A stretch of DNA of 64,000 bases from Rhea pennata (Eukaryota > Chordata > Aves > Rheiformes > Rheidae). The notes beneath the pieces were generated by a model that saw only the letters and a list, made by a program, of their open reading frames with translations, made no database searches and was not told the origin of the DNA. Where the stretch lies: positions 4,067,501 through 4,131,500 of the forward strand of contig NC_084672.1 in the NCBI RefSeq assembly GCF_028389875.1, written 5' to 3'. The position numbers and the translations under genes were made by a program. Shown in pieces: positions 18,945 through 53,102 of this stretch; within the stretch, counting starts at the first letter, position 1, and each line of letters starts with the position of its first letter.

Positions 18945-19145
18945 AAATTCGGAAAGCCGACAGCACGGGCTAACGTGCCGCGAAACACGCGGAGGCCGTT
19001 ACGCGACCCAGCAGGGTCCTGCCGGAAGGCTGCAAGCTCCGAGGCCGCCGCCGCGCCGAACTGCAGCGCGACTCGGGCGGCGGCTCAGCCGCACGCCGAC
19101 CGGGGCGCTTCGACGGCGGCGGCTTCTCGTACCATACGAGCTGTT
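18945..19145. promoter_or_regulatory. Orphan CpG island B inside the last ASB7 intron
   Basis: A second CpG-dense block of about 200 nt, densest at 18975-19130, about 4 kb from island A. Flanks are AT-rich on both sides. It shows no visible sequence similarity to island A beyond composition. It could be an enhancer or promoter of a noncoding transcript. There is no motif evidence strong enough to name a factor. Confidence 0.45.
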
Positions 19146-23931: not shown

Positions 23932-24537
23932 TTGTCACTTCTTGTAAGAAATCCAGACAGGGTCGGCTACTTCCAGAAATACTTATTGAAACAGCCAGTG
24001 GGGTTTGTCCTTCATAGTTCCTTGTGTTAGTGTCTGCTCCATAATTATACAACATTTGTGCACAAAGCACATCATCTCTAAGAGCAGACAAGTGTAAGGG
24101 CGTCTGTCCATCTTCCAAGCGACCCAAGTTTGTATCCGCCCCTCTCTGAAGGAACATTCGGCAGTAAGAGTGATTGCTTTTGATCACAGCGTATCGTAAC
24201 AGGAAACCATTTTGAATGTCGATGTTGGCATTATGATCCAGAAGGATTTTCACGCAGCTTGACCTCTCTCGGATAATGGCCAGCTGAAGCGGTGTAGTAC
24301 CTTTATCACTGAGCGGATCAACCTCAGCCTTGAACTCCAACAGGAGCCTGACAAATGAGTCTCTGCCGTAGTGAGCTGCTACATGGAGGGGAGTCCAACC
24401 ATCGTTGCTTTTCGCATTAATAATGTCACTTCTATATTCAGACTCCAACATCAAGCGCGCAATCCTTGCTCGGCCATGCATGGCTGCGTAATGCAAAGCA
24501 GTGAAGCCTCCAATTAAGTCCTTAACAGTGGGATCAG
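23932..24537 (-). CDS. ASB7: ASB7 coding exon 2 (central ankyrin repeats)
   Basis: 606-nt exon encoding residues 71-272 of ASB7. The minus-strand acceptor CTTTAG ends at 24538, and the first bases CT complete the alanine codon begun by the last G of exon 1. The donor is GTATGT at 23931. It carries most of the ankyrin repeats, with visible consensus cores such as 'GFTALHYAAMHGRARI', 'DGWTPLHVAAHYGR', 'KGTTPLQLAI', 'DGQTPLHLSAL' and 'EGQTPLAVSI'. ASB7 is the substrate receptor of a CUL5 ligase. From published work on the human protein, it targets the spindle protein DDA3 in cell division. The sequence is almost identical to the human protein as I recall it. The frame stays open past the donor for 35 more codons, so intron retention would give a 307-residue form without the SOCS box. 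Confidence 0.96.
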
Positions 24538-29198: not shown

Positions 29199-29780
29199 GT
29201 GTCTCCCTCTTATTTAATGGATAATAAAAAGCTTGCTCCTGTTCTATCCTCTCTAGTCAGTCAAGTCAGCCTGCATGCACAAGTCCATCCCACGGTTCTT
29301 CCTTCACTGGTGAGCAATAATAGAAGAGTGAAAGAAAAACCAGGGAGCAGCCTGGTCCTAATTCCTCATAAAAAGCTACCTTTTATTTCTCAGATCCTTT
29401 CTCAGCCTACATTCATCAAGCTCCATCTCAACTCCACTATCATTCAAGATTCTAGGTCAAGAGTGTTCATGTCCCAGACCTTAGGCACAGCACCTTCCCC
29501 TCACCTACAGCCCCGCATGAGTTTCTCACTCCTGTACCACGAAAACATTTCCAGCTATGCTAAACTTCATCACCACTCTAGGTGGCCACAACCATCACGA
29601 GTCTCCATCCTTCCCACTAACACTTCAGTCTCCTCTTCTTCAGTGCTTCATCCACTCCCTCTCACTATCTCTTTTATTATAAACTTACACAGCCAGTCCA
29701 GGACTCTGTCTACCATAAGATTCACACCAGAAAATGACTTTGTCCTTCACCACAATATCATTTTAGTCTGCATGGATTAG
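29199..29780 (+). other. Long pyrimidine-rich open frame, probably fortuitous
   Basis: A 193-codon open frame with no recognised domain, antisense to ASB7 within its intron. The plus strand here is rich in C and T and poor in G, which by itself depletes TAG and TGA and lengthens open frames. The translation is rich in Ser, His, Pro, Leu and Thr, as expected from that composition. No splice context, Kozak-like start or protein similarity was noticed, so it is listed as an oddity and not as a gene. Confidence 0.15.
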
Positions 29781-31590
29781 CACCCAATATCAAACTAATC
29801 CATTTCCTGAGTGGGAGGAAGGTGAAAAATTGTGTTAAGAAAGGTAGAGACAGACCTCTCAGTAATGAGGCAGGAATGATTAAGTTTGCCTTTAACAGTC
29901 AGCTCATTCACTGTTTAACAGCTCATTTGTGTCATTATTATTTTTTAAATATTCATTATCTTTTATGTCTCTGTTTTAAGGGAAAACAAGGCAAAACACA
30001 AAACAGCGCCAACTTTCTGAAGCAAGGCTCAGCTAAAGAAAAGCCGCTGTAGATGACTAATCCTCACACTACTTGTTACTCAACTTTCTAGTCCTGGTGA
30101 TTAAATTCCCCTGTTCTGGAAGCAACATGATGTTTCACTACAAACATTTCTCACCAAGCATCAGATCCAGTCAGTGTTTCATTTAGCAGAGAGAGTAACA
30201 ACAACAAAAATAGAAACAAAACAAAAACGCTAAGCCAACAGCTATCCAATATCAAAACCTATTCAATGAAAAACATTTGAGATTTACTCTTTTTTTGAGA
30301 TCACCTTCAAGTTTATAGAGTTAAAAAACAACTTATTTCCAGATTTACAGCCTAAAAATGTAAAATTATGAAACTGAAGACTTGGGACCTACATATATGA
30401 CATTTAAAAAAGTAAAATTTAAAGTTATTTATTTATTTGTGCAGTCTAGTAGCTTCTTCTCCCTCACCCCCACCCAATGACAAGGGGTGGTTGCTAGTTT
30501 AATATAGTTAGAAAACTGTAGTAGGTTTATGAACAGAGCCCAGTTGTTCAGGCTATATTTCACTACTAATCTGAAGTAACATACCACTAACGGTACAAAT
30601 ACAACAGCCTACTAGTGCCACCCAGCTTTAAGTATGATTTATACATATAACAAATAATGAAATACAAATGAGGGGCTGTATAGCCTCAAGTATAAATAAA
30701 GCATCAAAAAGAGAACTCAGATAAGTCTGCTTGTGACTGAAAACATCTTAATTCATTATTTATCAATTTAGCTGACAAGAACAGTGCTACACTACAAAAT
30801 GCTGTTCCGTTAAGACCTCTACTCAGAATGTGGAGAGCCCTTCCTAATTTTTGTTTTCCACTCCTAGTGTTAGATTAAAAGTTTAAGACTACCAACTTCC
30901 AAAACTTTAGGTGGTCTAGTAATAAAGCTATAGCAAAAAGCAACTTCGACTCTACCATTTGAGGGGGAATAACCATCAGCTGAAGGACTATACCACTTAA
31001 ACTGTCAAAATTCAATCAGTTCTTCAAACAAAGCTTCACTGTTCCTGAAGGATGCAGGAGAGACAAACTCAACTGGACTAGCTGACACTAAAATCCTAGC
31101 ACAAAGAGTATTGTCTTCAAAGTTTAGCAGACTGTGTTAAAGCCTATGCGAAAGCTTAGCCTTTAATTTGACTTGTTAACTTGCTTGAAAATTATGAAAC
31201 AATCTTCCCGAGGATTTCAACTCAAACACTTGCCTTCTTCTAATAATCCCCCTAACAGAGAAGGAAGGCCTATAGATGCACTCACAGCACTCACTAAGTT
31301 CATAATGAGCTTTTCTGTCCTACTTTTATAATGCTTATTCATCCTTACAACAGTTCCTAGCCAATAAAAAAAAAAAAAAAAGGTATTTAGATACAAAGCT
31401 CATCTACTACCTCATTTACAGAGCATGCATCAGATGGAGATAGAAATGAAGCATCATTCCAAAGAAAGAAAAGAGGAAAAAAAATTATCAGAAGTAGTCT
31501 GACACTTAACTGGTCCTGGAAAGGCATACAATAGAAACTGAGCTAGAAAGTTGCAAAATGAGAATCAAAATTTTTCTCTAGTTAGCTTAC

Positions 31591-31801
31591 CCCCATGTTC
31601 AAGAAAAACACGGACACATCTCTCTTTCCCTCTTGCTGCAGAGAAATGAAGCAAGGTCCAACCATTGGCATCTCGTCCATTTGGAGAATAACCTTGCTCC
31701 AGCATCTTGCGCACAGTGTGAACATCGCCAGCAGCAACTGCAGCCTGAATCTGCAACTCTTCCTGTAGTTCAGGGTTTCTCCGACAGTGATGGTGTAACA
31801 T
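31591..31801 (-). CDS. ASB7: ASB7 coding exon 1 (start codon, first ankyrin repeats)
   Basis: 211 nt from the ATG at 31801-31799 to the donor GTAAGC at 31590. It encodes residues 1-70, starting MLHHHCRRNPELQEELQIQA, then ankyrin repeat cores around 'AVAAGDVHTVRKMLEQG' and 'DANGWTLLHFSAARG', ending in EHG plus the first base of an alanine codon. The start was chosen because it matches the known ASB7 N-terminus and has A at position -3. The frame continues a few codons past the donor, but the next residues differ from ASB7, which fixes the splice. A short 5' UTR piece is expected upstream (about 31802-31850), with weak acceptor candidates. It joins to a noncoding exon in the CpG island about 9 kb away. 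Confidence 0.95.
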
Positions 31802-31849
31802 CCTAGCTGAATCTGACTTTTACAGAAGCGTCATGAGGTCATACTAGTC

Positions 31850-34800
31850 ACCTTGAATCAATATAAAACATGAATAAATTAGCACAGGGACAAAGAAAAG
31901 AGGTATCTAGAAAGAATCAGTACTAGTGAAAAGCAATGCTAGGATTTACTCTCCACATGCAGAACATCTTATGTGTAAGATAAGAATTACAGACTATCTT
32001 ACTACTGCTAGCAAAAACATAGCATATGGTTCAAATCACTGAACTGCAACAAAAAGGGACACTTGCACATTATAAATAAAAAACACTTTCTTCAGAAATG
32101 ACAGCATCAAAAAACAGTCCACTGTTAAAGTAACCTGAGTAATAAGCAAAATGAAAAATCCCCACAACGCAACTTTCATTTAAGATCACAGCATGGCTAT
32201 TATCACCAACTCCAGAGATACCAGTTGAATAGATTACCTAAACTGTCGCATGAAACAATGCTGCCTTACTAGAGCAACTGGACGATGATATTTTCTAGTT
32301 TTTTCTGGAAATATATAACCTCTAAGCTAAATTGAAAACATTTTTGTCTGATTAATTTAACTTTTTCTTGAGACGCACTGTAAAGGAACATTAGTAAAAC
32401 TAACATTCAAACTAAAAACTTTATTCTAAGTCACAGTCTACTGCCTGTATTTTGCCTCGTGGAATTCTTTATTGGTACAAAAACACTGTTAAGGACATTT
32501 ATAATCCAAGGATCAGACACAAAGACGATCATATATGAGACCTGAGGAAACAGGTGCAGTTAATACAGCCCTCTCAAACACCACGAGTACATATACTCGA
32601 ACAATTCAATTTATAATTACCTTGACACAGTATATGAGAGAGCTGGGCCAAAAGGCTATCTAAAATAGCCATTGTAAAAGAGCCTATACACCAGCGTATA
32701 TTGGAAAAGAAATAAGTACTATATTCCATGCTCTGTTTGAAAAGTATTCATCTTCAGTTCTATTTGCTACCCGGCTGCAGACAAGAAAAAAAATACAGAT
32801 ATTTAGGGACTCTTTCACAGTATATAAAGTCTGTTAAACACTTGCATTTTCACATACATTATGTATCACATCCCATTAACAGGTATTCCTAGAATGGAAA
32901 GAGGATCAGAAGAAAATGGACAAACACGAGATATTAGAAAGGGAATGCTGAACAGCAGAAGTCTCAGAAAATATTCAGAAACTGTTGGAACGGATATTAA
33001 CATACAACTTCAAGATAAAGTTTAGAAAAGACTCCTGTAAAGTTAATTAAGTTACTCTTACTCATACAAGGAGAAATTCTAAAGACAAATATGAATTTTA
33101 AACTATCTTTAAAATTTACAGCAACCCTATTTTATTAGGATGCCAATCTATGCCATCATCTAACCCTTCATTTACATAAATATAAGGATTTCCAGATCCT
33201 CATGATTCATAGGTCATTCAAAAGACATTGCAATCAACTCCTCATATCCCACTGGGCACTTGTTTTCCTCTGATTCAGATAAACATGCAGACAAGAGAAA
33301 AGTGAAAACATCAATCAATGTCATGCTTCCAGATAAAGGCTTGGACACCTAGTCACTCTTACAACCTATTTGGGCCCATGGCAAAGTTATTTATGTGCTA
33401 CATGCAGAGATACAAACTCTGAAGTAACAGGTAGCTACAACGACTATTTATTTATACAGTGAACATGGAAATTACATACACAAAATGCCTGATTTTGACA
33501 TTTATAAATGCTTCAAGATACCATGTATGGCAACAATCACCATTTCAGCATGTGGTTATGAAACATTTTCTAACTCAATAGGTTATATACAGCTTAGGAC
33601 CTGGCTTTGTTTTGTTTCATAATATTGATTCCATTATCTGGTACTAGAAGAAAAGAGGCTTTGCAAAAGCAGCACCTGCTCACTCAATAGTTCAGCTTTT
33701 GCAGCATATCCAAAAAATCAAACTTGATTAATCAGATGACAATGGAAGTATTTTTATTGACTCTAATAAGCTTTTGCTAAGCCTTTTCTAAACTCCACTT
33801 AGCACTTTAGAACATGGTCACCTGTGAGAGTGAGCTGCATTTTGTCTGGATCACACTGGTAATGGTAGTATTAATGAAATTCCAACCATATAGCCAAGAT
33901 CTTCCTTCGGATTTACAGGCGAAGACTGATAGTAAAACCTGTCCGATAATAAGTATGAGCCATGAGAAGATCCCTCAAAAAACAGAGCATGGCTCTTTGG
34001 CCCTACTTTCTGAATGCGTAGAAAAGCAAGATATGAAAACTTTTCCCTCAAATTGAGAGCATCTGATAAAAATGAAATATTATTTGTAAAGGAGTAACAC
34101 TTGCAGGATCTCATATCATCTTGAAAGTGAGGATCAAACTAGTCACTGAAAATCTGAGAAGAGACTGGATGACTGAACAGATCAGGAGAGAAGAAGTGGT
34201 ATTTCTCATTTAGGGGCCAGCAGCATCCCCCCAAGTATCTATGAAGACAGTTGGTTAAGGGAAAGCAAAGCTCTTTATATCATACTTCTCAGCTGGTGGA
34301 TATATTTGTAATGCAGCATTATAAAAAGCTGGCATTGGCCCCGTATGTTGCACGCAACTAGCAGAATTTATTCAAATTAGCTAGTACTGAAGTATGTAAG
34401 TACAAAAACATACAAAACAGAAGACAAAGTCAGGCATAAGAAGCTCCTTTTATCAGTTGTGGAGTTTCTCAAAATAGCAATTTTATCTCACCTCCATTGC
34501 AAGCAATGAAATTCAAATTACATGAATACTAAAGTGTAATGTTGAAGGTTTCAGGATAGTTCTAGACACATACCAGCTTTGAAAACATTTTTGCTTCCAC
34601 TCCATAATTCATTTAAAATTCCCATTTAAAGATTCCCCATTTACAGCATCAATCTTTGGAGACTGAAAGGACTACTGGAAGTCATTAGCCATTTGGCACT
34701 TAACAGTTACTGTTTTACAACTATAATCAGTCTCATTCAGAACACAGTATGTGTTTCGATGACTACATTTTGGCTTTCTCCATACAAGTAAAAAAAAATA

Positions 34801-37800
34801 AAATAAAGACAGGAAAAATGTACTTAGACATTCTTGGTTATAATGACAGTAGCACCATGAAAATAGAGGACAACTACTGAACTGATTTTGCAAGTATAAC
34901 AAAATAAATTCAATGCTTTCCTGCATTACCTTATAGGAGGTTGTCACTTTGTGATGTATGTCCCACTCTTCACTGTCTTCATTATTCATAATCTTGTGTG
35001 GCCATGTGTGTCAAACAACCTGCTACCCCTTAAAAAGAATAATATTTCTTATTAGGTACAAAGACTGAAAGTGAGAGGTCTAGCTAGTTTTATCCTGAAC
35101 CTATGCTACAATTCTATGTTATAATGCAGTTATGCCAGAAAAGACTCTAAAGTGTGTTTTCTTTCATTATTAGGCAGTTCTCCAGAGGCCGGGGGTGGGG
35201 AGGATGCTACCGACAGACAAGGCTGCAGAGAATACTTAATGGAAAAAAAAAGAGAAACTAGAGATGTGCTGTATCACTGAAGTAAACCTAAAAGAATCCT
35301 TCTTTCAGGTTTTCACGTATCTGTTCCTGCCATGGAACAAGAATGGATGCAAAGGTTACAGTACACATTTCTGCCTGACTGCTTAACATCTCCATGTAGG
35401 AGCCAGACTCCAGGAAAAACATAGACAACCCGTACAGTTCCTCCCAAACCATTTTTGTTTCTCTATCATATCTATGTTTCTTCATCTAAAAAATAAAACC
35501 TGACAATACAGATCATTGTCTTCCCTGACCTCTGACGGGACTTCTCTAGGGCTACCATACAATCTTCACTCCCTCACACAAGAAATCAGCCTAACACACA
35601 CCATATCTTACAAACAGGCAAACATACTTTCACAAAACAAGCAATAGCTTCAGCTCAAAAATCTTCACCCCTTTCTTCATATGTAACACTTTCCCTTTTA
35701 TCCCTAAGTTTAGTAAACGGCGGTTACAATCCCTATCCAGCCTCTTCCTTCAGATAAGGAGAGCTAATCCTCTTTCCCTGTCATCTATAGTTAACAGTAT
35801 CAGCCCCACAGTCAAACCACTCCTCACAGTACTTTTGAGAGCCTATGCTAATTAATATCATTCATTAATTCTTTGTATACCTCTTCTATCTGGCCTTTCT
35901 TTCACTTTGACTGCAAGCTCTTTGGGACAAGATCACTTTTGAGCGTGTGTGTACAATGCTGAACACAACGGGAACTTAGACTATGACTAGGCATTGCAAT
36001 AATATAACAAATAATAACAGTATTAATTACTTCATCATATAGCAGATCATACAAGAACAACCCTGACTTGTTTCTGCTGTAAATGAATTGTACCAGAATA
36101 GTTGCAAGAACTACGCAGCTTTTAGCTTAAGTGAAAATTTCTGTCACTTAACACAACATAAAATCTTGCCTTCCTGATGATAGCTTAGAGAAGATGAAAA
36201 AAGCACTCTTCATCCCTCTCATGCACGTTTTCAAGAGCTTTGCTTCCCAAGAAAAAAAAACATACAAGGTCTGCAGATATGCTCACAGCCCTGCACAAAA
36301 CTGCACTGCCATGACCTCATTTGATCACATTTCTAGCCTTGTTTTTTGCATAGACGATCGGTCGTTAGTTCACTCTTTTTTTTTTTTTTATTTTTGCATG
36401 ATTTTCACTTAAAAGCCCACACATTTTTTATTAGCTAATGCAAATTAGAATTGCACTGACTTCACAGACTACAGACAAGGTAACAGATTGCTCCACTAAA
36501 AAAGTAACAAGCTTTTTTTCCCCCCAAAGGAAAATTAGCTGCATATGGCAAGAGTAAGATCTGCAACTTTAATAAAAAGAAGTTATATTTTTAGTGAAAG
36601 TAAAGTCACTTACTGAACAACTAGACAAAGTTTGCTTAAAATACTAATAATTGTAGTAGAAGTAGCACATCAACTAAAAAAATAAGACAAACATCTTCAT
36701 TACCTATGCATAAGTCTCATGTTGTCAAAGAGATCTGAGACTTTTCTACATCAATGCGCTCCTTCATTAAACAAATCACTCCAAATATGATGTGGAAAAT
36801 TAATTCTGACATATCTATATTTTTACTTTAAAGATGGCTCAAAGTTGGCACTAAAAGTAAGACCTTATAATATAGTATTTTGTTCATTCAGATGGCCTTA
36901 TAGACCTCCAACCAGGGCCACAAGGTCACACATTCAAGAGCAGAATAAGGTTAACTGATGTCAACGTAACGCTATACAACAGTAAAAGTGTACTACTACA
37001 CAGGACATTTATCATTATTACATTAATTACATTATTACATTTATCATTATTACATTCATAGCTAGCATAGACCTCATCAATGTAAATCCTAATTGTCTCT
37101 GGTTGAAATGAAGTATTCTAAGATTGTGGAGGGGGGGGGGAAGCCCTTTGAACTAAGGATAATCACATTAGTGTTCGTCATCCCCACAACCCACTTATCT
37201 CACCCAATTCAAAATTCAAACAAGCTGAATGTGTTCTCACTCAAAAGGCATTTTAAAAACGGTCAGTGTGTGTTCAACAAGAAGTCTAAATACAACTATC
37301 ACCTTCCTATTTGCAAAGCTCTTCAGACAACAGAGTAAAGCAACACATCGCATTATTATTTGTGTTCCCATGTCACAATAATAAAGTTTGCAGATAGCAT
37401 GTGAAATAGCAGAATTTCACAGCTTATAACCCTGAATATATTTTCTGCTGAGTGCTCAACACTACATCTCAGACAGGTATCAAGCAAAGTATACCTTATC
37501 TATCCACTTGACTGAGATGAAGATTATCAAGCAACACCTGTGTACTGCTGGGTCTGAAAGCAATGAGTTAAGAGTGCATGAATCCCCCAAAATATCATAG
37601 AGGAACTTAGATTTCAAAGGAAAGAAACCATCACTAAGAAGTCATTAAAAGATACACACACACTCACACACACACACAATTCTCGTGACAGCATCTCTAA
37701 TGCCATCTTGCAGCTGGGACAAATTTAACTTAAAATAAGTATAATCTAACACTACTACATTAACAGCAGTTTTTTTATGGTACTGTAGGATGCTATCTAG

Positions 37801-40800
37801 CGTTGTTATATACTAATAAGCAGCTTCTCTTACATTCTGCAGGTGGCTGCAACTCAAGTCTAGAGGTATCACTTTACCAACTATTATCCATTTCACATCG
37901 ATGTTGTGAGGTCTGATGTTTTGGGCCTGATGCAGAAAGTGAAATTACACAGCTCATATAACTTCAGGTCTGCAAACTGGAGAACAGTAGAACAGTCCCT
38001 GCCGTCGGAAAGTGCTAGTTATGCATCGGCTATTAACCACTCTCAAAAATTTCAACCCATACACTAACAATCTGAACTGCAAGTAGAGCCCAGTAAAGGA
38101 AATACTGCAAGTCCTTTCAAACCAAGGACTTCAATGTAGTGCTAAAGCAAGGTCCTATGGATCTTTTTCAGTAAAAAACACAGCAACTGGTTTGCAGAGC
38201 TACGACTTTCCTTCCTCAAAGTCTATACCCACAAACTGTACAGAGTTTGCAGTCTACAGCATGATCCTCGAGATCCTCACATACCAAGCAGAAGACAAGC
38301 TCTCTTAAGTTACAGTGGTGCTGTTATTAAGTTTCAAAGAATGATGCAGTATAAATAAGATGAAAATTTTGCTTTAAGAGCATGTTACAATTCAGAGCAA
38401 GTGCTAATATATAGGATTTCTATAATTTAACACTGCTACAAGCATACAAGCACTAACACGTCATTGATCAACAGAAGCAGGAAATGGCTAGTTCAAACCT
38501 TGCTAAAGCAATCACTTCAGTTCTAATATTCGCAACACAACCGATGAACAAATGAATGCTGTTTATAAAGCTCATTTCATTCAACAATCTGCAGAAGACT
38601 TAAATTTGCTCCATATTTTTTTTTAATATCCTAAAAGAGTCTGAAAGGACAGAATTCATTAAATGACTTCAGTGGATAAAGCAACAGTTTTTCACCCTGA
38701 TAGTATCATTCTGTAAGCAAATCCTAGAACAACATAAAGCAGTATCTCAGTCAGCATATTTTCTTTAAGGGTTTAGAATTCACTGTAAAAAAAAATAAAT
38801 AAAATGAGCATATACACAAAAGATCATAAAGTCTGACTGTGCAACTTTATCTAATGGGACAGCTATAGTTGCAACACGCTACATTTCTTCCAGAGAAGAG
38901 CAGGCCTTCAGCACATTGTTTACCTTTGTTTCTTGTTTTGGCCATGTGTAAATTTCTGCCAAAAGGTAATTCTCCCATTTCTGTCAACTCAGTTTCAGCC
39001 TCTGCATCTGGATCAAACTTCACTGCACTGGCATTTCACATTAAGGAGCTTCAAAAAAATCAAATGAGCAGTTGCAATTCATTCTGTGAATAAATCCTAA
39101 CCATCCAAGGACTTATCAGCACTAGAGGTGTCCTGTTTGAGTAGCTACATTAATGCAAGCCCCTATGTTAGGTGCACTGGATGGGCTGTAAAAAAGGTGT
39201 TTATAATAAACCAACTTCATATGAAACAGGTGTGGCATAATTACACTGAAAAGTTTGTACTAGTGCACATCCATCTTGTCTCCTGCACTGTTACCAAAAA
39301 CCCCTCCTGCAATTACACTGGACATGTTCACATGTTCCAGTGTTACATATGTTTTTATAGTAAGCTATCAAAATAATTCGAGTATTTCTTCATTGTATTT
39401 TTAAAATGCATCTCAAAGTTTGCTGCACTGGGGAATGTTCTATTTAGTCTTTGAAGTTTAACAGCTACTCTTCGCCATACGCCAGAGATGCCTATATTAG
39501 AAAAATGATCCATCCTTGACCAAGGTTGTTGGCAACAGGTACTGCTCTTCCCCTGCATCTAATGCTAAAAAATAATTTATTGCTGACAATGAAATACGTT
39601 ATGCTACAGTCAATGACATCTCTGAAAACATGACAAAGACAGCAAGATGCATATCGAGGATATATTTGCCAAAATAACACAGGCCCATCCACATCTGAAA
39701 TGGATTAAAATGGGTTCAGTACAGACTTTACACAAAAATAATGAGTAGAAATTCCATTATTCAGAGCATACTAACAGTAGGATGCAGAAAAAGCCTGATA
39801 GACATCTTTCCTCCCCCTCTTGCTCTCTTTCCTTCTAAAGCCCATCTCTGTATCTTCTTGCCACACAGAACAGGCAATTCACCCTATGAATCTTTCTTCC
39901 CCTGAAACCTAACCTTTCTCCTTTTAGCAGTAGCATTCAATTTTTGATGCCATGTTTCATATTTTTCCTCAAGTATCTAACAATATTATCTTCTCCTGTG
40001 ATTTCAACGGAAAAAGTTAGCACATCTAAGCAGACACCCACCCAATTAAATGAGTTTCAATTTTTGCAACTTGGTTACAACACAACGCAAAAAGCTTGAC
40101 ACATGCAAAAATTAGATATACCTAAACCAACATAATGCAATTACCATGATCTACCCCAATAATAATTTTAGAATCTGAGCAGCTACTAGAAGTCATGTGT
40201 TGTACCCATAAGTCAGTGAGAAGGCTTTAAGAAAAGATGCTTTTAACTACCCAGAATGAAGTCATTTTAAATTACATTCCTCAAACGAAGAGCCAAAAAA
40301 AAAAAATTACGTAGCAGATCACAGTGAAAATGTTTGCAGATAAAATTTAGAAAATGAACACAACAAGAAGAGAGAGGAATAGAACTTCAGCTGGGCTTTA
40401 ATGCTTTTCAACTTTTAAACCTACTTGCTATTATGCTTTAAGAGAACAAAGAAATCTAATACTATCTATTCAAATCTATCAAAAACATAAAAACATTCAC
40501 AACACGAGGCCCCAAATCCAGCCAAACCACACATCTAGGATGATTTTGGAGACTGTATATAAATTATCACCTTCTCTTTTTTTTGAGCACTGCTTTCTCT
40601 CTTTCTTTCTTCTGTCTTATTTTGTTCTTTGGAGTCAGAATTTTTAATTCTCCTTTAAGGCAGCTTAAACCTAAAGAAAAGGAAAGAAGAAAGGTGCACT
40701 GAGCCACATAATGACATTAAGAGAGAGAAACGGAGAACAAAAACAGTTAATACCAAAGCAATAACAGGCTGGAAAGGGGCAATTCTTCAAAATTTAGGAA

Positions 40801-40810: not shown

Positions 40811-41462
40811 ATTTACCCAAACTGGGACCTCAGCATGGAAAGAGGAGCGCTCCCTCAGGAAACCGAGGAGTTGGAGGGACCTCAGCGGCAGGACTGCCAG
40901 CCCTGTCAAGCGCAAGTCTCAGGGGAATTGAAGTACGAGGCAAGCGCTACAGAATGGGACAGGAAGTGACCCGCAAAGCGCGGCTGCCGGGAAACGCCAT
41001 CGCTCCCTCGCCACAGCCAGTGCCCCGGGAGGCGGCCAGCGCGCGGAAGGAGCCGGGCAAAGCCCCAGCGCGGCGCTCCGCGGCCTGGCGGGCGGGGAGC
41101 CGAGCCCGGCGGGGGCCGGAGGGGCCCGCGGCTCCCCCCGGCCCGGCCCGGCCCGGCCCGGCGGAAGGGGGGGGGGCGGCCCGGCGGGGCAGGCCCCGGC
41201 GGGGGGGTGTGTGTGGAGGGGGGGGCAGCCCAGCCGCCCCCCGCCGCGGCCGCAGCGGGGCAGGGGGCTGAGCGCCCCCCCCCCCCATCCCGCGCGAGGG
41301 GGCGGCGCGGGCGAGGCTGCCGCGGCGGGGAGCGGAGCCGGGGCCCCCCCGGAGCGGCGAGGCCAAGGGGTCGCGGCCCCCCCCCCCACACCCCCCTCCC
41401 GCCGCCGCCCCGCCGGCGGGGACGCTCGGGGCTCTGCCCCCCCCCCCCGCCGCGGCCGTTAC

Positions 41463-41650
41463 CTGTGTGCCGCCGGGGGGGGAGGGGAGGGGCCCGCAGC
41501 CGCCCCCCGCGCTGGCGGCGGCGGCGGCGGGGCGGGGGGAGCGGCGGAGCCGGGCGCCGAGGGGGCCGAGCCGTGTGGGGACACTTTGCACCGAGCCACC
41601 CCCCCCCCCCCCCCCGCCCCGCCGCTCGCGGCGGGGTCAGCGGGCGGGGA
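41463..41650 (-). other. ASB7: Putative ASB7 noncoding exon 1
   Basis: On the minus strand CACACAG is followed by GTAACG, a good donor, with the exon ending at 41463. It sits just left of the paired CCAAT boxes, which would place the start site near 41640. An alternative first exon could end at 40817, where TTTGG is followed by GTAAAT and an ETS-like site lies upstream near 40960. Neither is proven. The exon is noncoding in either case, because the ASB7 start codon is about 9 kb downstream. Confidence 0.45.
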
Positions 41651-41666
41651 CTGACCTCCGCCGCGG

Positions 41667-41728
41667 CCAATCGGACGCCGCCGCGCCGGGCCCGCCCCCG
41701 GCCGTGCGTCGCCGCCGCGCCGGATTGG
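41667..41728. promoter_or_regulatory. Inverted pair of CCAAT boxes
   Basis: GGCCAATCGG on the plus strand (CCAAT at 41667-41671) and its reverse form ATTGG at 41724-41728. These are likely NF-Y sites, facing ASB7 and LINS1 from the middle of the island. Confidence 0.6.
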
Positions 41729-41799
41729 GTGCCGGGCTGACGGCGGCTCCGCCTACTTCCCCTCCCCTTTGCCGTAAAGGCGCCGGGGAGGGAGAGGGT

Positions 41800-42012
41800 T
41801 TTGCGACAGGGAGAAAGAGGAGGGGCGGTGGGGGAAGGAGGAGCGGGCTGTGGCGGCGCCGGCGTTTAGGCGGAGGAGATTTGGGCCTTGCCGCGCCCTG
41901 TCCCCAGGGGGCGGGTGACTCGGAGCGGTTGCTTAGCAGCGGGGGAGAAGGGGCAGGGGCGACCCGTATGCGCGGCGGCTCGCGGTGACTAAGCGGGGCC
42001 GCGCGCTGCCAG
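41800..42012 (+). other. LINS1: Putative LINS1 noncoding exon 1
   Basis: The plus strand reads GCTGCCAG followed by GTGAGG, a strong donor with the exon ending at 42012. The 5' limit is not visible; 41800 is a guess placed right of the CCAAT pair. It contains a six-codon upstream open frame starting at 41968. The exon would join the acceptor at 44934, skipping the GGGCC minisatellite. Confidence 0.5.
41902..41914 (+). promoter_or_regulatory. CTCF-like motif in promoter island
   Basis: CCCCAGGGGGCGG resembles the CTCF core around CCAGGGGGCG, with a mismatch at the 5' side. In such G-rich DNA a chance or SP/KLF-type match is also possible. Confidence 0.3.
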
Positions 42013-42061
42013 GTGAGGGGCGGGGCGGGGCGGGGCGGGAGGCGGCCGCACGCTCGGGGGC

Positions 42062-42556
42062 GGCGCCGGGCCGGGCCGGGCCGAGGGGGGGCCGGGCCGG
42101 GCCGGGCCGGGCCGGGCCGGGCCGGGCCGGGCCGAGGGGGCGCGAGGCGGGGCCGGGCCGCGCCGGGCCGGGCCGGGCCGGGCCGAGGGGGCGCGAGGCG
42201 GGGCCGGGCCGCGCCGGGCCGGGCCGGGCCGGGCCGAGGGGGCGCGAGGCGGGGCCGGGCCGCGCCGGGCCGGGCCGGGCCGGGCCGAGGGGGCGCGAGG
42301 CGGGGCCGGGCCGCGCCGGGCCGGGCCGGGCCGAGGGGGCGCGAGGCGGGGCCGCGCCGCGCCGGGCCGGGCCGAGCCGAGGGGGCGCGAGGCGGGGCCG
42401 CGCCGCGCCGGGCCGAGGGGGCGCGAGGCGGGGCCGCGCCGGGCCGCGCCGGGCCGAGGGGGCGCGAGGCGGGGCCGGGCCGGGCCGAGCCGGGCCGAGG
42501 GGGCGCGAGGCGGGGCCGGGCCGGGCCGGGCCGCGCCGGGCCGAGGGGGCGCGAGG
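42062..42556. repeat. Nested GGGCC minisatellite
   Basis: A pure G/C-rich tandem array. An initial block of GGGCC pentamers (about 42066-42134) is followed by ten copies of a module with core GAGGGGGCGCGAGGCGG, separated by variable numbers of GGGCC-type pentamers. The GCCGAGG anchors start at 42131, 42182, 42233, 42284, 42330, 42376, 42412, 42453, 42494 and 42540. Spacings are 51, 51, 51, 46, 46, 36, 41, 41 and 46 nt. Every change is a multiple of five, so the array varies by whole pentamers. It lies about 50-540 nt inside LINS1 intron 1 and is probably length-polymorphic. Copy number could be wrong in an assembly. Confidence 0.95.
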
Positions 42557-44097
42557 CGGGGCGGCCGCGGGGGAGCTCGCAGCTCACGGTGGAGGTTACT
42601 CGCAACCTCTGGAAGCAAATCACATTTTAGAGGCGGTTACGGTGTTTCAGTAGGCTGAGGTGTAGTGAGAGATGAACCTGCAAAGCCGCGGCCGGTCCGA
42701 GCCGGTCCGAGCGTGTTTTCGCTGTTCCTCACGCTCTGCCTCGCAGGAGAGCCACGGCCGCCGAGCTCGTGCCCGTGAAGTCACGCACCGAGACATCTTA
42801 TTCTGTGACAAGAGTTCTTCTCCCAGTTGCCTTTTATGTGATATCATTTAATAGTGTGAACTGCAGGGAAAGGCTAAAGCAGGGTAGGGATTGACGAGAG
42901 TTTCCTCTGCTACTGGCTGTTCTTCACCGATATCGTTGGGTAATCGCAGTGCGTTGCTGTAAGCCAATTATGTTAGTAAAAAAATAAAAAAGTAAATGGA
43001 ATAGTAGCAAGATATTTCAAAGCTTTTTTTATTTTTTTTCAGTCAAACCAATGATTTCTGTGACTTCACGCTAAATTAAGCATCCTACCCTGGAGAAATA
43101 CACTGACTTTGTAATTCTGTTTTAGGATATTCTGGGGGCAGTTGCAGCCACTTAAACTTGTGTCAATCCTTAAACATTGTAAGCTTCAGCTGTCATCTAA
43201 GGTTTCACTTCTGTTCCTTTATTTCCTTTTTTTTTTAATCGAATTTATTCTCTTCTTCCTCTGTCTGCAGCTCCTTGTGACTTTGTTTTTGATTTTAAAG
43301 CTTAACTAAGATAGCCATGGAAATAATATATAACAGAATATTTATTCTGTTTCTTACTGTATGATTATCCTCCCTGCCTGATCTGTCTGTATCTGAGCTC
43401 TTCATAACTTCCTTGGTGTTTATGGCTGTGTCTAGCGCTGTGGGCCTTACCTTAATTGCTTTTTAGATACTGTCATGAATAACACAAATAAACAATACAA
43501 GTAAGGGTTGGAGTTTGTCATTTCTTGTTTATGGATATGATTGCTTTTTTTACTCTTTAGCTTTGTACTTTTCACTGAGCTCTCTCTTACTATGGAGCGA
43601 ATTTAGTCATCTGACATTTCCCCCCTCCCTTTCAAATAAATGTCTTTAATTAGTAAATTTTTTAATAAAATCCTATAAACAAAACAACCCCTACTCCCAA
43701 CTTGGAGTAGATAAAGATAATGCCCTTTTTATTTTTTTTATTAAAAGGATGCTGAGTAGGTAACTTTCCTGAAAAGACTGATATTACAGGCTAGCATTAC
43801 TCATAATACAGTTGAAAAAGAAACCTTTGTAATCTTAGGAATATTATTTTTGTCTTCTGGTGAGATCCGATATCTGTCTAGCCACTTTTATAATGATTGG
43901 AAATTTGTAGGTACTTAGGTACTCACACTTGAAAGTAAAGAGATTTGAATTCTTAATAGCTTTTCATTTTAAGCTATCCTGAGTTCTCATGCTGTTGAAA
44001 AGAGTTCCATTGACTTTGTGATCAGAAAGAGTTTGATTGTTGTGTTTTTTTTTTTTTTTTATGTGGTTAAATATTTTTACTGGCTTCCAACACGTTG

Positions 44098-44126
44098 TTT
44101 TTTTTTTTTTTTTTTTTTTTTTTTTT
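44098..44126. repeat. Homopolymer T29
   Basis: Twenty-nine consecutive T residues in LINS1 intron 1, with a second run of 16 T at 44045-44060. Simple repeat. Confidence 0.9.
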
Positions 44127-44934
44127 GTATTTTCTAACTTTAAATTTCTCAGTCACTCACCCCTTGAGCCTAATCCCATGACATTGTTGATCTTCTGCTT
44201 ATCTAAAAATCTATTCTGGATTACAAGATTTAGGGGCTCAGAATGAGAGTTCTGCAGGTGTAGATGTAAAGGAATTCTGTTAGGTGTTCTTCAGTGCTCC
44301 TTCTTAAATTAAGAACTCAGTTCTTCCCTGCAGTGTATTCATGTCGCTAACCTTGTATGTCTGTGTGCAGCAGAAAACAAGATTTACTCTTTAGTCTCAA
44401 TTTGGTTTTTTTTGAATTGTGTCACCTTACCCAATCTTAGTGGAGCAATTAGCATTGCATGTTAAATTAACAGTTTTCTGTTCAATTTCCAGCTTTCCAT
44501 GCTTCTTTTCTTTTCTTTTGGAATCACACAAAGGAAATGAGGTTGAGGAAGTTGTAGCTATGTAAAGGTACAGAAAGTTCTGATCAAATTCTGATCAAAA
44601 TTCTCGTAGAATATTTCAGATTAAGTCCCTAATTGTAGACACTCTTGTTTGCATTAGGTTCAGCAAATCAGTTTTGGTTTCAGAAGTATTGTACTTGGAA
44701 CTATAAACTCTTTTACTACATGGTCATTCTTGTAAAGTTAAGTCATTTAAATGTCCTATTGGGACAAAATTTTATGCGACTGTTAGTTTATCACTCTTGC
44801 TGTTTAAAAACATAGTGAATGTATATTCAAATTTTGTTTAATAAGGGTAGTGTTAACTCTAAAAATGTGTGGTTTTGTTTTTTATCTTCCTGCTTATCTG
44901 TTAAGTTCAGTAACAGTGGAATGTTTATTTCTAG

Positions 44935-45069
44935 GTAACTTAGAAGAGAAATGCCGGGTAGTGCTTCTGTTTCTCTTATGGATAAAAATAACTTCAAAAC
45001 AAATTTGCAGTGATCAGAAATAATCAGTGAAGACATAAGACATTCTCCAGAATATTTATTGTTCGCATA
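44935..45069 (+). other. LINS1: LINS1 5' UTR part of the first coding exon, with uORF
   Basis: Starts after a TTTATTTCTAG acceptor at 44934. An ATG at 44951 opens a 20-codon upstream frame ending in TGA at 45011-45013, out of frame with the main start at 45070. A second AG at 45009-45010 is a weak alternative acceptor that would remove this uORF from the message. Confidence 0.5.
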
Positions 45070-45477
45070 ATGAAGATCTCTCTGTTACAGCAGATGTATA
45101 AAGATGTATTGGCAGGCATTCCGCTAGCAAAGGAGAGCCATCATTATACCTCCTTCCTCAATCTGTGTATTGAGCAGTCACCAGAAAGAGATGAATCATG
45201 TAATCGGATGCATCTGTCATCTGTTAACAGTGGTATTAGCAGCCATCAGAACCCTGGTATTTCAGATGCTGTTGTCCCCATAGCAGATGATGCATCTAAT
45301 AACTTTGCAAACACGAACTCCTCATTGTGTCCACGAGAAGTGATGCTGCTTCAGTTAACTTTGATCAAGATGATGGTGGCAAAAGTACAGTCCCAGGAAA
45401 CTGAATTCAGTACAAGACAGAAGTACTGTGATATCTTTGTCCTTCTTGTGAAGGAGACACAAATTGACTCAAAACTG
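45070..45477 (+). CDS. LINS1: LINS1 coding exon 1
   Basis: 408 nt encoding residues 1-136 of the Lines homologue LINS1. The start ATG at 45070 (A at -3) gives an N-terminus starting MKI, comparable to MKV in the human protein. The conserved block 'CPREVMLLQLTLIKMMVAKV' matches the human 'SREVMLLQLTVIKVM' region. The donor is GTAAGC at 45478 in phase 0. LINS1 is the vertebrate counterpart of Drosophila lines, which acts downstream of Wingless and Hedgehog signalling. Human loss-of-function variants cause recessive intellectual disability (established knowledge). Its molecular function is poorly understood. The total coding length here is 767 codons, close to the human length of about 757. Confidence 0.93.
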
Positions 45478-45561
45478 GTAAGCTTTTACAAACTTCTGGG
45501 AGGTTTTTATGAAAAGAAGAAGGAGTATAACATACTTTTTTTTTTCTTCCCATGTCTGCAG
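45478..45561 (+). other. LINS1: LINS1 intron, 84 nt, stop-free and in frame
   Basis: Donor GTAAGC and acceptor TTTTTTTTCTTCCCATGTCTGCAG. The length is exactly 28 codons with no stop in the LINS1 frame. It is called an intron because the retained sequence has no counterpart in the human protein, while the flanks join cleanly as DSKL-ICLL. Retention would insert 28 residues. Confidence 0.88.
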
Positions 45562-45651
45562 ATATGTCTGCTCAGTAGTTCTGATCAGCTGTTATCTCAC
45601 ATGGCATCAAAAAGTTTAGCATCTCTTGTGTATTTCCAGCTGAAGGAAGAG
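45562..45651 (+). CDS. LINS1: LINS1 coding exon 2
   Basis: 90 nt, residues 137-166, phase 0 at both ends. It encodes 'ICLLSSSDQLLSHMASKSLA' followed by SLVYFQLKEE, which parallels the human 'SDKLLSHMAAQCLALLLYFQ' segment. The donor is GTGAGT at 45652. Because its length is a multiple of three, skipping would keep the frame. Confidence 0.92.
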
Positions 45652-46848
45652 GTGAGTATGATGTAACCTTCCTTGGCTTAGAAACAATGAGTTAGTGAAT
45701 GTGTGCCTTCCAGTTGTTCCATTTGACTCGAGGCAGCTTTTTGTAGTACTTATACGGTGCAAAAGCAGAGACTACGTGACTACACGTATCTATAGGCTTG
45801 AGATGTGCATTCTGCAATTAGACATGAAGCAACAGCAGGACTGCTGCTTTCCTGCATGTGTTGCCCTCGTGTCTGTTGTGCTCCAACTTTCTGTAAGGCA
45901 GATCTACACTCTGCTGGTGTTCAGCGAGTTTGCTCAAAATGTCATGCAGTTTCATTAAGCTGTCTTTCGACCCAACATCAGGAACAAGGTGAAAGCTATA
46001 CAAGATAATACTATATGGTAATCTTCCCTTAAAGAGTATTTTTAGTGGGGTTGAAATGATTGATAGGAAGGATATATAATAAATATTCCAAGAGACTTTT
46101 TCAAGCGTCTTAGGAGATGCAGAAAGTTCAGAAAATGTGTGGAAAGAAGGAAGGTTGGATGTATAATGGGAATAAAGTTTAGAACGTTTTTCTATATAAA
46201 GATCTGGAGTTTATGAAACTACTTTAAGAAGAAAAGCATGTCTGAGGTGCAAAAAAAACCCCATTCTTTTTAAGCTTACAATATGGATATTGCCAAAAAA
46301 CAATCAGCTATATAATCAATACAGTTACAGTTAATTGAGCTGTTAGATGATGCAATTAGAACAATATACAATAACCTATTGGAAGTTAATCAAATACTTT
46401 TCTGTATTTTGTTGTCTGAATATTCCAGTTCTTTATTGTTTTTTCTACTTGTATATTTGATGGATATGTATTGTAGGTACCATAGTACCTTCTCTGAACA
46501 GAGATTTCTTTCAGAAGCATGTTTGTAATATTTCTTGCAAAGTTATGAGGGACTATGTGTCTTTACAGTACTATCAGATTTTGCAGCATGTCACGTGACA
46601 TTAGCAGGTTTGTAGTTTTTTTTTTTTTTTTCTGGAAGATATAAATTCTATTACATGGTTATTTGACTTCACGTCTGTAAACAGAGGCCTACACTTGTAA
46701 GTATGAGGAGATCTTTTTCCACCTGTTTCACTCTATGCCTATGCTTGCATCTTTTAAAATCTACAATTTTAGATCATTGTATTGTGATTGAATTTAATTT
46801 GCACAGTTGTAAAACATACATGATTGTTTTGAACTTATTTTTTTTTAG
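45652..46848 (+). other. LINS1: LINS1 intron (coding exons 2-3)
   Basis: 1.2 kb, donor GTGAGT, acceptor TTATTTTTTTTTAG ending at 46848. It contains T15-17 near 46618-46632. Nothing else was recognised. Confidence 0.85.
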
Positions 46849-46990: not shown

Positions 46991-47288
46991 GTACTGTAGC
47001 AAATTTATGATGCCATCAATATATATGAGTGCCCACTAGGGGGAGAAATATTACTTATAATCTCCAGAGCAGGTTAGCTGAAAATACCAATGGCACTGGG
47101 TTATTTTCTTGATTGAAAAGAGGTGGGGGGCAAAGTACTGTTAAAAATGTTGTGTTTTTAACATGCTTAAAAACACCAGCTGATTGTGATTATTTTCAGC
47201 TGTTTATCTGATGAGGCTATTTTAAGTGATACAGCTGACTGTTGTACTTCAGCAAGTTTAACTCTCTGTAATGTTCTTGTTGCTGTAG
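46991..47288 (+). other. LINS1: LINS1 intron (coding exons 3-4) with CTCF-like motif
   Basis: 298 nt, donor GTACTG and acceptor TGCTGTAG ending at 47288. It contains CCACTAGGGGGAG at 47033-47045, close to the CTCF core consensus. The end of the intron is open in the downstream frame from about 47186, which extends the apparent ORF but is not coding. Confidence 0.85.
47033..47045 (+). promoter_or_regulatory. CTCF-like motif
   Basis: CCACTAGGGGGAG matches CCASYAGRKGGCR at 12 of 13 positions (A in place of C near the end). Plus orientation, in a LINS1 intron. Confidence 0.4.
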
Positions 47289-47879
47289 GTGTCTTGAAGA
47301 AGTTGCTGGCTCCTCTCGATGCTGTGCTTGAAGGATTTTATAATTCCATTTTGTGCCATCATTTTGACAGTCTCCACTATACTTCACCTTATTCTGAAGC
47401 TGCAAACAACTTGATCAGTTTCATAGATCTGCTTGAAGCTCTTTTGGTTTCCAGAGTTGAGTTAGAATTACCACTGAGATGCCAGAGAGTATTATTTTTG
47501 AAAGTTTCTTATGTCCTGAATGTCATTAGCTCATCAGTTCATTATTTGTTCAAGAAGTTGTTCATTATGCTCCTCAAAAAATGTGTCCTTTACAAATCTA
47601 GAGAAGACTCTGTAAGCGGATCACCATTCTTACAAAAGCCGTATTTGTACGAGGATATGCTTGCACTGAGTAATGGTGTTCTGCAAGGTGTGAATTTGAC
47701 TTGGCTTAATCAGATCCCTCTCAGTGAAAAAGCAAGCTACTTTGGAGGCAGTGAACCTCATCCTGAAGATAATACTCACGGTGGTGTTGATCAAACCCTT
47801 CTCAGAGCCCTAAGTCTAGTTGTGCTTAAAGCACTGGAATTCAAGTTTCTGAACTCTACTACAGAAGCTGAAGTCAAAG
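47289..47879 (+). CDS. LINS1: LINS1 coding exon 4 (Lines N-terminal domain core)
   Basis: 591 nt, residues 214-410. The G from exon 3 joins GT to give glycine, then VLKKLLAPLDAVLEGFYNSI. Conserved blocks include 'HHFDSLHYTSPYSEAANN', 'FIDLLEALLVSRVELELPLR', 'CQRVLFLKVSYVLNVIS' and 'LRALSLVVLKALEFKF', all with clear parallels in human LINS1. Most of the Lines N-terminal domain, an alpha-helical region, lies here. The donor GTAATA at 47880 follows EVK and leaves phase 1. The open frame runs on to 47950 but diverges from LINS1. Confidence 0.94.
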
Positions 47880-50770
47880 GTAATAGTCTTTGTTTTGTTC
47901 ATCAAGCAAGAAGCCTTAAAGCTTTCAGATTTCTGGTTGCAGCTCATTAAGACTGTAAATAGAATTAAGCTGAATTAGAAGTTATTAGTATGAAGAAAAT
48001 GATTTTCTTAAAATTAAATGAATGGAATGTTAGAGAGTATGGGGGGAGGAGGGAACCCAGTAGAAAACCTGCTACCAGTGTCACTTTGTGTCCTGATTAT
48101 TAGTTGTCTCCTTGCCTTTGATCCTAGCCTTAGCATAGGGATATGGGGAGTTGAAACAGCTGCATTTGGGGTTGAAAACCTTTCTTTTTGAGAACATTGG
48201 CAAATACGTGAAGTAGATGAGCCAGCTTGAGGAAATCAGACTCCTCTCCAGCTGAGAAAGAGGAAAGCCCGTAGAATAAAAATCTACTCTATTTGTGGAT
48301 GGAGAGCTACAGGAAGGGCAGGAAACAGTCTCCTGGTTTCTAATGTGGAGGCAGACCTTTAAAGTACCGTTATGCCTTTATCCTGATTGAGTGTACTAGA
48401 CACTACTACTGTCAGACAAATAATGCAATAGGGCAGAAAATAACAATGGTGGAAAAGAGAAAAATAACAAACCTGTAAAGTAAAAGGCAGGAAAACTATG
48501 GGAGTTTTTAGAGGATAGTGTTGTTCTTTACCCTTACTTATAATAGGCCTAGTCCTATGGATTAGTAGGTGCTAGGCATACTTTTCCTACTTGCTCAACC
48601 TGAGTGTGTTTGTTCCACTGAATAGGTGAGTTAGATTATTAGAAGAGCAGATTAATCTCTTGTACTAGAGGTATAACAAGGCAGGTGGTGGGAGGGCAGG
48701 GGATGCTGTGTGATTTGCATTCCTGACCGGAGAGAAAGCATTGCTGTGTCACTGTAGCCGGGTTGTAGTCAGCCTTCTCATATGCTGTAACGGAGTGCTA
48801 TGGTGAGACTGACCTCTTCTGCCTTGAGATACTTCTGGAGTGGTGTCTTCTCACCTATCTTTTTACCTCTCAGAAGCATACGATATGCATCTTCTGACTC
48901 TAAGCCATGTGGATGTGCAAATCGTATGAACAGAGCAACTTGCTGTCCCTGGATTACAGACTTTATGGCAAAAATGGAAAGGGGGCTCTGAAACAATGTT
49001 TCTAGTCAAATGCAAGTGAGAATGTGTGTACCTTAGTGTCAACCAGTCAGGCAAAGTTTACTGTATATATATGTATTTTGGTACTGATGAAATTTGACAG
49101 TATTGTAAAAATGCCCCAATATATTCACAAGTCCTAGATGTAAATATTTCTGCCTTTTATGTTTCTACATTCTGTACAAAGCATAAAATCCTTTTTTTTT
49201 TCCTCTGGCTGTGCAAAAGAGCTACAGAATCCTGCAAGACAGCTTCTGATGCCTTTTCCAGATTTTGTCATAGTTGTGATTCCAGTAGCGTTCTTAGAGT
49301 TTTTAGGTATTTGTAGGGAGGATTTTTCTTACAGTCCACCTTCTCAAAATATATAGAGACTCTGAGATCCTCCAAGAACAAGTGAATAGAATAAACATAG
49401 CCTAAAACTATTTTTGATACCTATATAAAAGAATCTTTCTTAAAGAAAATCTTTTTTTTTCCAGACTTATGCCACAAATATTTTTCTTTTTAATTGGATT
49501 CAGATATCGTAACCATCACAAGGAATTTCATGTTGAAAGTAATGATGCTTCTGTTTTATTGACATTAAATAAAGTGGTTAGAACAAGCACCAAAATGCTT
49601 AATATGCTAACTTCCCTTCCAGGAAGGTTGATCCTGTCTTTTTTTTTTTTTTTTTTGTTAATATGAATTAAAGTGGCTTGACTTTAATTCATTTCAATTT
49701 TGAGAGTAACTTCCAGATAGCTTTGATATACAGGGAAGAATTTCAGCCTGAATAGTAACTATTAATAACTAAGATAATTTGCTGTTTATATGTCTTTGCT
49801 AACAGGAAAAGCAAATCTTAAAGTCAAACATTCAGGCAAGCCATATAATGCTGATTTTGTAAGTAAAATTGATTCCCATGTTGCAGGAAGTCTTGTAAAA
49901 GCATTAATCACTGTTTATATGAACTATGCAGCTTTGCTGTTCAAGCCGTGGTGTCCTTCAGCACCATGAGAATTCTTATCTAAGGTGTACATTCTGGGTA
50001 AAGATGTATGTTACTCTCTTTTTTTGCCTGTCTTCTAAATGTTGACTATATGCTACAATACATGAAAAACTTAGGTAAGTTCAGACATGCAGAATCTTTT
50101 TCACAGTGTACCACTAGTACTGAGGAGGTAAGTTTCTTGATTTATGGGGAACAGTCTGTCTCAACTGTATGGTTTAACTTTAGTGCAGTGGTTTACTCTT
50201 GAAAGTGGTGTAAGTTTTGAGGTGTCTTTTGCATTCAGGAGTGCAATGTTTAGAGTGTGGGAAATCTGCACTGAAGACTTGAATGAAAAACAATGCATAT
50301 ATTACCTTGAGTTCAGTAAATTCAGTACTTCTAGCAAGGCTCTTGTACCATCACATGAATGTACCTTTACTCCAAGCTAACATGTACTTGAGAAATGTAC
50401 ATGACTTGATGTCATTCATGAAGATTTTATTTTATAAAGAATAAGTTTGGTTATGAGTATGTTACAAGCTTGATACCTTGTTTTGTTGGAGGAATGACAG
50501 TTTGTTCCCAGAGACTAGAAATTGCTGCAGCTGACTATCTACAGTGTAACACACAGTAGGGGTTTTAGCTTCAACCCCATTAAAATGTTGAAATTGTATT
50601 CTTCTTTCGTGTGGGAAGGACTGACACGAAATCTCACCAAAATGCTCATATTGGATCATTAAATCTGTGGCTTTGACTGTATTACAATTCACTTGTCTTT
50701 AGTTGCCATGTGCTAAAAAAAGAAATTTAACAAAACTTAGTTACTTTTTTTTCTCCTTTCTTGTTTTCAG
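47880..50770 (+). other. LINS1: LINS1 intron (coding exons 4-5)
   Basis: 2.9 kb, donor GTAATA, acceptor CTTGTTTTCAG ending at 50770. A minus-strand open frame at 48778-48996 looks slightly exon-like but has no recognised homology. Several T-runs occur. No gene was called. Confidence 0.85.
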
Positions 50771-52210: not shown

Positions 52211-53102
52211 GTTACGACATGATGCTGTTGATGGCATAAGCCTAGAAGAGGCGGAAACTTGGAACTTCTTTACACATGCAAATGGCTATAATCCCCACTG
52301 TGTCTTTTTATTTTTCCTAAAAAATATTGCATTTGATTCCACAGTTCTTCTAGATTTTTTGATTTCATCAGAAACTTGTTTTCTGGAGTATCTAGTAAGG
52401 TATTTAAAACTTCTTAGAGAAGACTGGCACCATTTTGTCAACATCTGTAACCATTTTGATACAAAACATGACATTTTTCAAGCTATTTCCTCTGACAAGT
52501 CACCTCATCAAGGAAAACAAAACTGTATGACTGATGTGAGCTTGCAAAATACTTGTTGTGAACCAGGTCCGCAGGTTCTATCTTTGGCTTCTTCTCGCAA
52601 TTACTTGGCATTTACAACAGAGCAAGGTGATAATGAAGTTGCAGAGTCTAACCAGTCTAACTCACTGCTATGCACTGATAGCACATTTCTGCCAGGTTCT
52701 CTTCAAAGCCTTGTTAATTATGACAGCTCAGAAGATTCTGAATCGGAGTCAGTTGGAGAAGAGTGTTTGGCAAACACAGAGCAGATGCCTTTAAGTTATG
52801 AGGCAAAGATAAGGGAAGCTGTTTCCAGCTGCAGAGATGATAAACAAAATACACTCAAATCTGAAGTGTTACCTCTGAAACAAAAGGGATCTAATACTTC
52901 ATCCGTTCTGGCTTCTGCAGTGTCTTCAGATAATATCATTCCGCTAAGAGTAATGCTTTACAAATCAACAGCGTGTTTGGAAGAATTGCAAATAGCTATT
53001 TCGAGGTTGCAGAGGAGAAATCTTTTCCCATATAATCCATCTGCATTGTTAAAACTTCTAAGTCATGTTGAGAAGATCAGTAAGAACATGAATCCACAGT
53101 AA
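52211..53102 (+). CDS. LINS1: LINS1 last coding exon (C-terminal domain)
   Basis: 892 nt, residues 471-767 and TAA stop at 53100-53102. It begins by completing an arginine codon and contains 'NGYNPHCVFLFFLKNIAFDS' and 'LLDFLISSETCFLEYLVRYL', nearly identical to human LINS1. A variable Ser/Glu/Gln-rich linker follows. A conserved acidic patch 'LVNYDSSEDSESES' lies at about residues 638-651 and could be a casein-kinase-2-like phosphorylation region. The extreme C-terminus 'RRNLFPYNPSALLKLL' (from about residue 739) fits the Lines C-terminal domain. No frameshift or missing segment was seen, so the gene looks intact. Confidence 0.95.

Follow-up and report, generated by a model that had tools for sequence, protein, structure and literature searches.

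A nested GC-rich minisatellite at the predicted start of LINS1 in the ASB7-LINS1 CpG island of Rhea pennata

Human UPS29, the closest printed counterpart that we found for the repeat array described here, is a minisatellite in an intron of ACAP3, built of 46-nt units and reaching 745 nt in total with 72.5% GC; the available passages of its description list alleles of 17, 9, 8 and 6 units (PMC7730309). Like the array at the predicted start of LINS1 in Rhea pennata, it is GC-rich and intronic and bears a GGGCC element in the middle of each of its units. It differs in belonging to another gene, where it occupies introns 3-4 to 14-15 depending on the transcript; the likeness is one of description, and the available passages make no mention of variation by pentamers (PMC7730309). 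The CSTB dodecamer CCCCGCCCCGCG is likewise a GC-rich tandem repeat near a gene start with a unit longer than six bases, and it is set apart by its 12-base unit, its place in the 5′UTR and its loss-of-function expansion disease (PMC11006399). The CGG repeat of FMR1 resembles the array in that it lies past the start site within a CpG island and has positive GC skew and G clusters, and R-loops span it in its skewed island; it is a trinucleotide repeat of the 5′UTR, and its R-loop has been measured, whereas that of the LINS1 array is a prediction (PMC3990486).

The earlier note on this DNA had likened the array to the intron repeat of C9orf72. That repeat is also GC-rich, lies in a 5′UTR or first intron and is of G-quadruplex type, but it is a simple GGGGCC hexamer and not, as here, a pentamer nested in a module of 36-51 bases, and expansion and toxicity are known there, whereas none are known here (PMC11006399). 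The analogy extends to the predicted location and to general chemistry: the G-rich strand of the array is the sense strand, and by splice consensus the array would fall into a first intron. It breaks down in the unit, which is GGGCC and not GGGGCC, in the 17-base core that interrupts the pentamers, and in the five-residue, not dipeptide, periodicity of the pure tracts; moreover, two or more uninterrupted GGGGCC hexamers, as in C9orf72, were found nowhere in the window. In general, G-tract motifs on the non-template strand downstream of start sites are reported to be typical of warm-blooded animals; in these, chicken among them, the motifs are enriched over the first kilobase of a gene and are mostly spliced out (PMC3905843); the array, as predicted here, would fit this pattern. 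A mention of the array was found neither among the LINS1/ASB7 nor among the minisatellite/CpG-island/bird matches listed from open-licence PubMed Central, which consisted of titles or abstract beginnings and leave its absence from print unproven. In the same collection, the sole match for LINS1 with "tandem repeat" concerned skeletal dysplasia panels, and the passages available of the complete chicken genome paper held nothing bearing on the array (PMC9974502).

The DNA analysed, called the window throughout, is a stretch of 64,000 nucleotides. It includes a CpG island at about 40811-42890, common to ASB7 on the minus strand and LINS1 on the plus strand, where GC reaches up to 94.6% in 500-base windows; the array lies within this shared island, just as had been described. 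ASB7 is represented by a coding exon with ankyrin repeats (23825-24496, minus strand), whose best PDB match is ASB7 itself (8y1u, 1.1e-129). The plus-strand gene to the right of the array is LINS1, as identified by the Pfam matches LINES_N (1.2e-58) in the ORF 47186-47950 (+), and LINES_C (6.7e-19) together with the end of LINES_N (8.5e-15) in the ORF 52359-53102 (+). An ORF at 45070-45666 (+), with no Pfam match of its own, probably holds the start codon, and from its position we take it to be the LINS1 protein start.

Donor-like sites were scored against the splice donor consensus. On the plus strand between 41600 and 45100, seven sites reached at least 7 of 9, and only CAG/GTGAGG with its donor at 42013-42014 reached 8. 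Downstream, 13 acceptor-like candidates were found in 42566-45200; the nearest pyrimidine-rich one, CTCGCAG/GAGA, has its AG at 42745-42746 (+), so that 42747 would be the first exon base. Because of this lone 8-of-9 donor and the acceptor candidates downstream of it, a LINS1 intron 1 around the array is likely. The array then lies 55 bases beyond the donor, counted to the first GGGCC run at 42068, in agreement with the earlier placement about 50 nt inside the predicted first intron. Four GGGGC pentamers (42017-42036, plus strand) stand just after the predicted donor, upstream of the array.

The array itself is a nested GC-rich minisatellite on the plus strand, delimited by Tandem Repeats Finder, core matches and parsing, in which ten full cores and one shortened core are separated by GGCC and GNGCC pentamers. 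The core GAGGGGGCGCGAGGCGG, 17 bases long, has exactly ten exact copies in the window, all on the plus strand, starting at 42134, 42185, 42236, 42287, 42333, 42379, 42415, 42456, 42497 and 42543. The spacings are accordingly 51, 51, 51, 46, 46, 36, 41, 41 and 46 bases, and this exact-match count bears out both the ten copies and the spacings first reported. A scan of both strands allowing up to 3 mismatches revealed no diverged cores inside the array, the sole extra place being 42029 with 3 mismatches. The nine linkers between the cores measure 34, 34, 34, 29, 29, 19, 24, 24 and 29 bases, and every one of them (9/9) consists of GGCC followed by three to six whole GNGCC pentamers, which makes directly visible the earlier claim that the modules differ by whole inner pentamers. 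These 44 pentamers comprise 31 GGGCC, 11 GCGCC and 2 GAGCC.

Upstream of the first full core a shortened eleventh module, module 0, starts 51 bases earlier, at 42083. By eye it reads as a core without ten bases followed by GGCC and eight GGGCC (42083-42133, 51 bases, plus strand), and the longest pure GGGCC run of the array, 9 units, is found at 42089-42133. It is followed on the same strand by modules 1-3, three identical 51-base modules (42134-42286), and by modules 4-9 (linkers of 29, 29, 19, 24, 24 and 29 bases) with the last core at 42543-42559, together occupying 42287-42559. Since module 0 is added upstream, the array extends from about 42065 to 42565. Tandem Repeats Finder gives 42065-42569 with a period of 51 and 9.9 copies, and an overlapping row, 42058-42538, with a period of 41. 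The head-to-tail order and a repeat length (period 51, spacings 36-51) within the range of about 10-100 bases are those of a minisatellite. The observation as first described is confirmed and slightly extended, by module 0 and by a GGGCC run on the ASB7 side, and the earlier reading of it is supported in part.

Such repetition far exceeds that of random sequence. Under an order-1 Markov model built on 41001-42700, a lenient choice as this includes the array, the commonest 17-mer occurred once in 899 of 1000 sequences, twice in 99, and three and four times in one each. Against this random maximum of four, the real sequence has ten copies of the core and 15 of its commonest 17-mer.

The distribution of variants shows how the array may have grown. 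All 13 of the 44 linker pentamers that are not GGGCC differ at the second base alone, and not a single difference was found at the 170 core sites and 212 other linker sites; these counts cover the ten full cores and nine linkers, without module 0, and the cores were picked by exact match, though the scan with up to 3 mismatches added none in the array. Modules 1, 2 and 3 match one another exactly, and module 4 departs from them by one pentamer. When the linkers were compared as strings of second bases, neighbours proved more alike than in random order: among 362,880 orders, 132 had a sum of adjacent distances as low as the observed 10 or lower, and so did 22 of 5,040 when the identical modules 1-3 were collapsed, in permutations that treat modules as exchangeable and are silent on rate. 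From this we infer that modules were duplicated locally, with the latest copies near the 5′ end (though module 0, lying further 5′, is diverged), and that pentamers slipped inside the modules. Pentamers would be gained or lost by replication slippage, and whole modules may have spread by unequal exchange or duplication, the latest of these events near the 5′ end. An origin of the core from degenerate pentamers was also considered and is not supported: six edits separate the core from a pentamer run, and of 500 shuffles of the core 455 were the same or closer. As the core is no closer to the pentamer run than its own shuffles are, such an origin is not claimed.

The stretch 42062-42565 contains 305 G, 176 C, 23 A and no T, which corresponds to 95% GC and 60.5% G, the GC skew being +0.27. 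It holds 109 CpGs and not one TpG or CpA, compared with 71 CpGs and 1454 TpG/CpA in 30000-40000, and 24 CpGs and 27 TpG/CpA in the flank 42566-42800. Such retention would fit a germline in which the array is unmethylated, though CpGs would be kept by recent copying as well. The absence of TpG and CpA is the weaker as evidence for non-methylation because recent duplication copies CpGs unchanged and because the variant pentamers represent few independent changes.

Since T is missing, 42062-42565 cannot contain a stop codon on the plus or the minus strand. The stop-free frames that had been remarked upon across the array are therefore real and are a consequence of the T-free sequence. The Gly/Arg/Ala/Pro strings are present as well, the translations containing Gly/Arg/Ala/Pro/Glu/Ser strings and, on the minus strand, Leu, but they lose their significance as a product of base composition whose frame is broken by the spacings of 46 and 41. 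Neither spacing is divisible by three, so that the frame shifts and coding constraint is not suggested. A coding repeat was rejected, as none of the four overlapping ORFs of 100 aa or more begins with ATG, their first codons being GTG or TTG, and one of these four, the 222-aa ORF 41985-42650, was scanned against Pfam with no match up to E 0.01. No Rfam match at the gathering score was obtained in the whole window.

The potential for G-quadruplexes and R-loops on the LINS1 sense strand, proposed in the earlier note, was reproduced as a prediction, and prediction is the kind of support it has. Ten non-overlapping G4 motifs were counted in the array on the plus strand, the sense and non-template strand of LINS1, and none on the minus strand, while in 500 dinucleotide shuffles the plus strand averaged 5.4 motifs and reached 9 at most, and the minus strand averaged 0.11. 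The strand asymmetry is thus largely compositional, as the shuffles average just 0.11 on the minus strand; the number on the plus strand exceeds what composition leads one to expect. G4Hunter gave a mean of 1.12 for the array, with 1.76 in the best 25-base window, and a higher mean, 1.88, for the short GGGGC-bearing stretch 42013-42061 before it. From 42030, the longest stretch averaging at least 40% G measures 1207 bases with the array, a running average extending beyond it, and 142 without. A scan run on QmRLFS-type rules predicted R-loop starts throughout the array, and also upstream on the plus strand and on the ASB7 strand. The island around the array is thus already prone to R-loops on either strand, so that the array may make no difference. 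Its G-rich strand is the non-template strand of LINS1, and R-loops or G-quadruplexes would be plausible. Of the features of R-loop-forming CpG islands, the island, positive GC skew and G clusters are seen, next to a predicted start site and a putatively unmethylated state. A strong RNA hairpin as a special feature was rejected: the folding value of -383 compares with a shuffle mean of -385.5 (sd 5.5, z 0.45), and 64 of 100 shuffles folded at least as well as the array.

The same island harbours a simple GGGCC run of 5.2 units by Tandem Repeats Finder (41137-41162, minus strand), G-rich on the ASB7 sense strand and hence opposite in orientation to the LINS1 array. On the ASB7 strand a predicted donor (41462, 7 of 9) precedes it by some 300 bases, another 7-of-9 site being at 41655. 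Markov models of orders 1, 2 and 3, fitted to the island after removal of the array and run for 2000 sequences each, gave no sequence among the 6000 with four or more whole GGGCC units in a row; as such models do not imitate slippage, this shows no more than that 41137-41162 is a microsatellite. That ASB7 and LINS1 each carry GGGCC on their sense strand is suggestive, but two cases prove nothing.

We consider it quite probable that the array is a nested GC-rich minisatellite which arose within the island where LINS1 begins, growing and shrinking by slippage and duplication, with a predicted R-loop and G4 potential and a nearly neutral effect. The island would be unmethylated in the germline. 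On transcription of LINS1, the G-rich non-template strand and the nascent RNA would favour R-loops and G-quadruplexes, which may help the island to escape methylation or retard the polymerase a little, and the repeat would probably be removed together with intron 1. The array is probably close to neutral, with a modest tuning effect at most. That it instead serves as a regulatory VNTR, its allele length tuning the transcription of LINS1 and perhaps ASB7 by way of R-loops or G-quadruplexes, or through binding sites that the invariant core would repeat, seems unlikely to us. The identity of the ten full cores beside variable linkers speaks for it, but recent duplication likewise predicts identical cores. 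It is also the array that makes up the larger part of the G-rich sequence after 42030 (1207 bases with it, 142 without); yet the surrounding island is itself R-loop-prone by the QmRLFS-type scan. The second GGGCC run on the ASB7 sense strand counts in favour as well. In a bolder form, which we regard as highly improbable, the sense-strand GGGCC arrays of the bidirectional ASB7-LINS1 island, nested at LINS1 and short at ASB7, would be a length-adjustable R-loop/G4 pair that keeps the island unmethylated and balances the promoters, the invariant 17-base core being a repeated protein site.

A pathogenic-type repeat resembling that of C9orf72, which on expanding would be toxic and give rise to RNA foci and repeat-associated translation, is extremely improbable: the array shares the GC-richness, the probable first intron and the sense-strand G4 motifs, but its unit and structure differ, it is interrupted, with nine units in the longest pure GGGCC run, and the spacings of 46 and 41 break its reading frames. 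DNA of 95% GC with identical 51-base modules is hard for short reads, and these very properties, with three such modules, could speak for an assembly artefact in which the length or internal order of the array is wrong in a region difficult to sequence. This is very unlikely, for the window is free of any N, and the modules show diverse variants in an order along the array that a random join would not produce.

Read as a nearly neutral repeat, the array is a well-formed yet ordinary kind of minisatellite, and it cleanly illustrates repeat evolution on two levels, with pentamers changing inside modules that are themselves duplicated, in a promoter CpG island. If its length varies among individuals, it would provide a natural test of how strongly a G-rich first-intron repeat affects R-loops, methylation and the transcription of two divergent genes.

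Elsewhere in the window, a 193-aa open frame (29199-29780, plus strand) lies in the interval that separates the ASB7 ankyrin exon from the CpG island, opposite to the ASB7 strand; it has no Pfam match and is probably due to chance or a decayed repeat. Two more CpG-island-like stretches were noted, at 14741-15200, with a 124-aa open frame that has no Pfam match, and at 18841-19240, and these may mark unannotated promoters.
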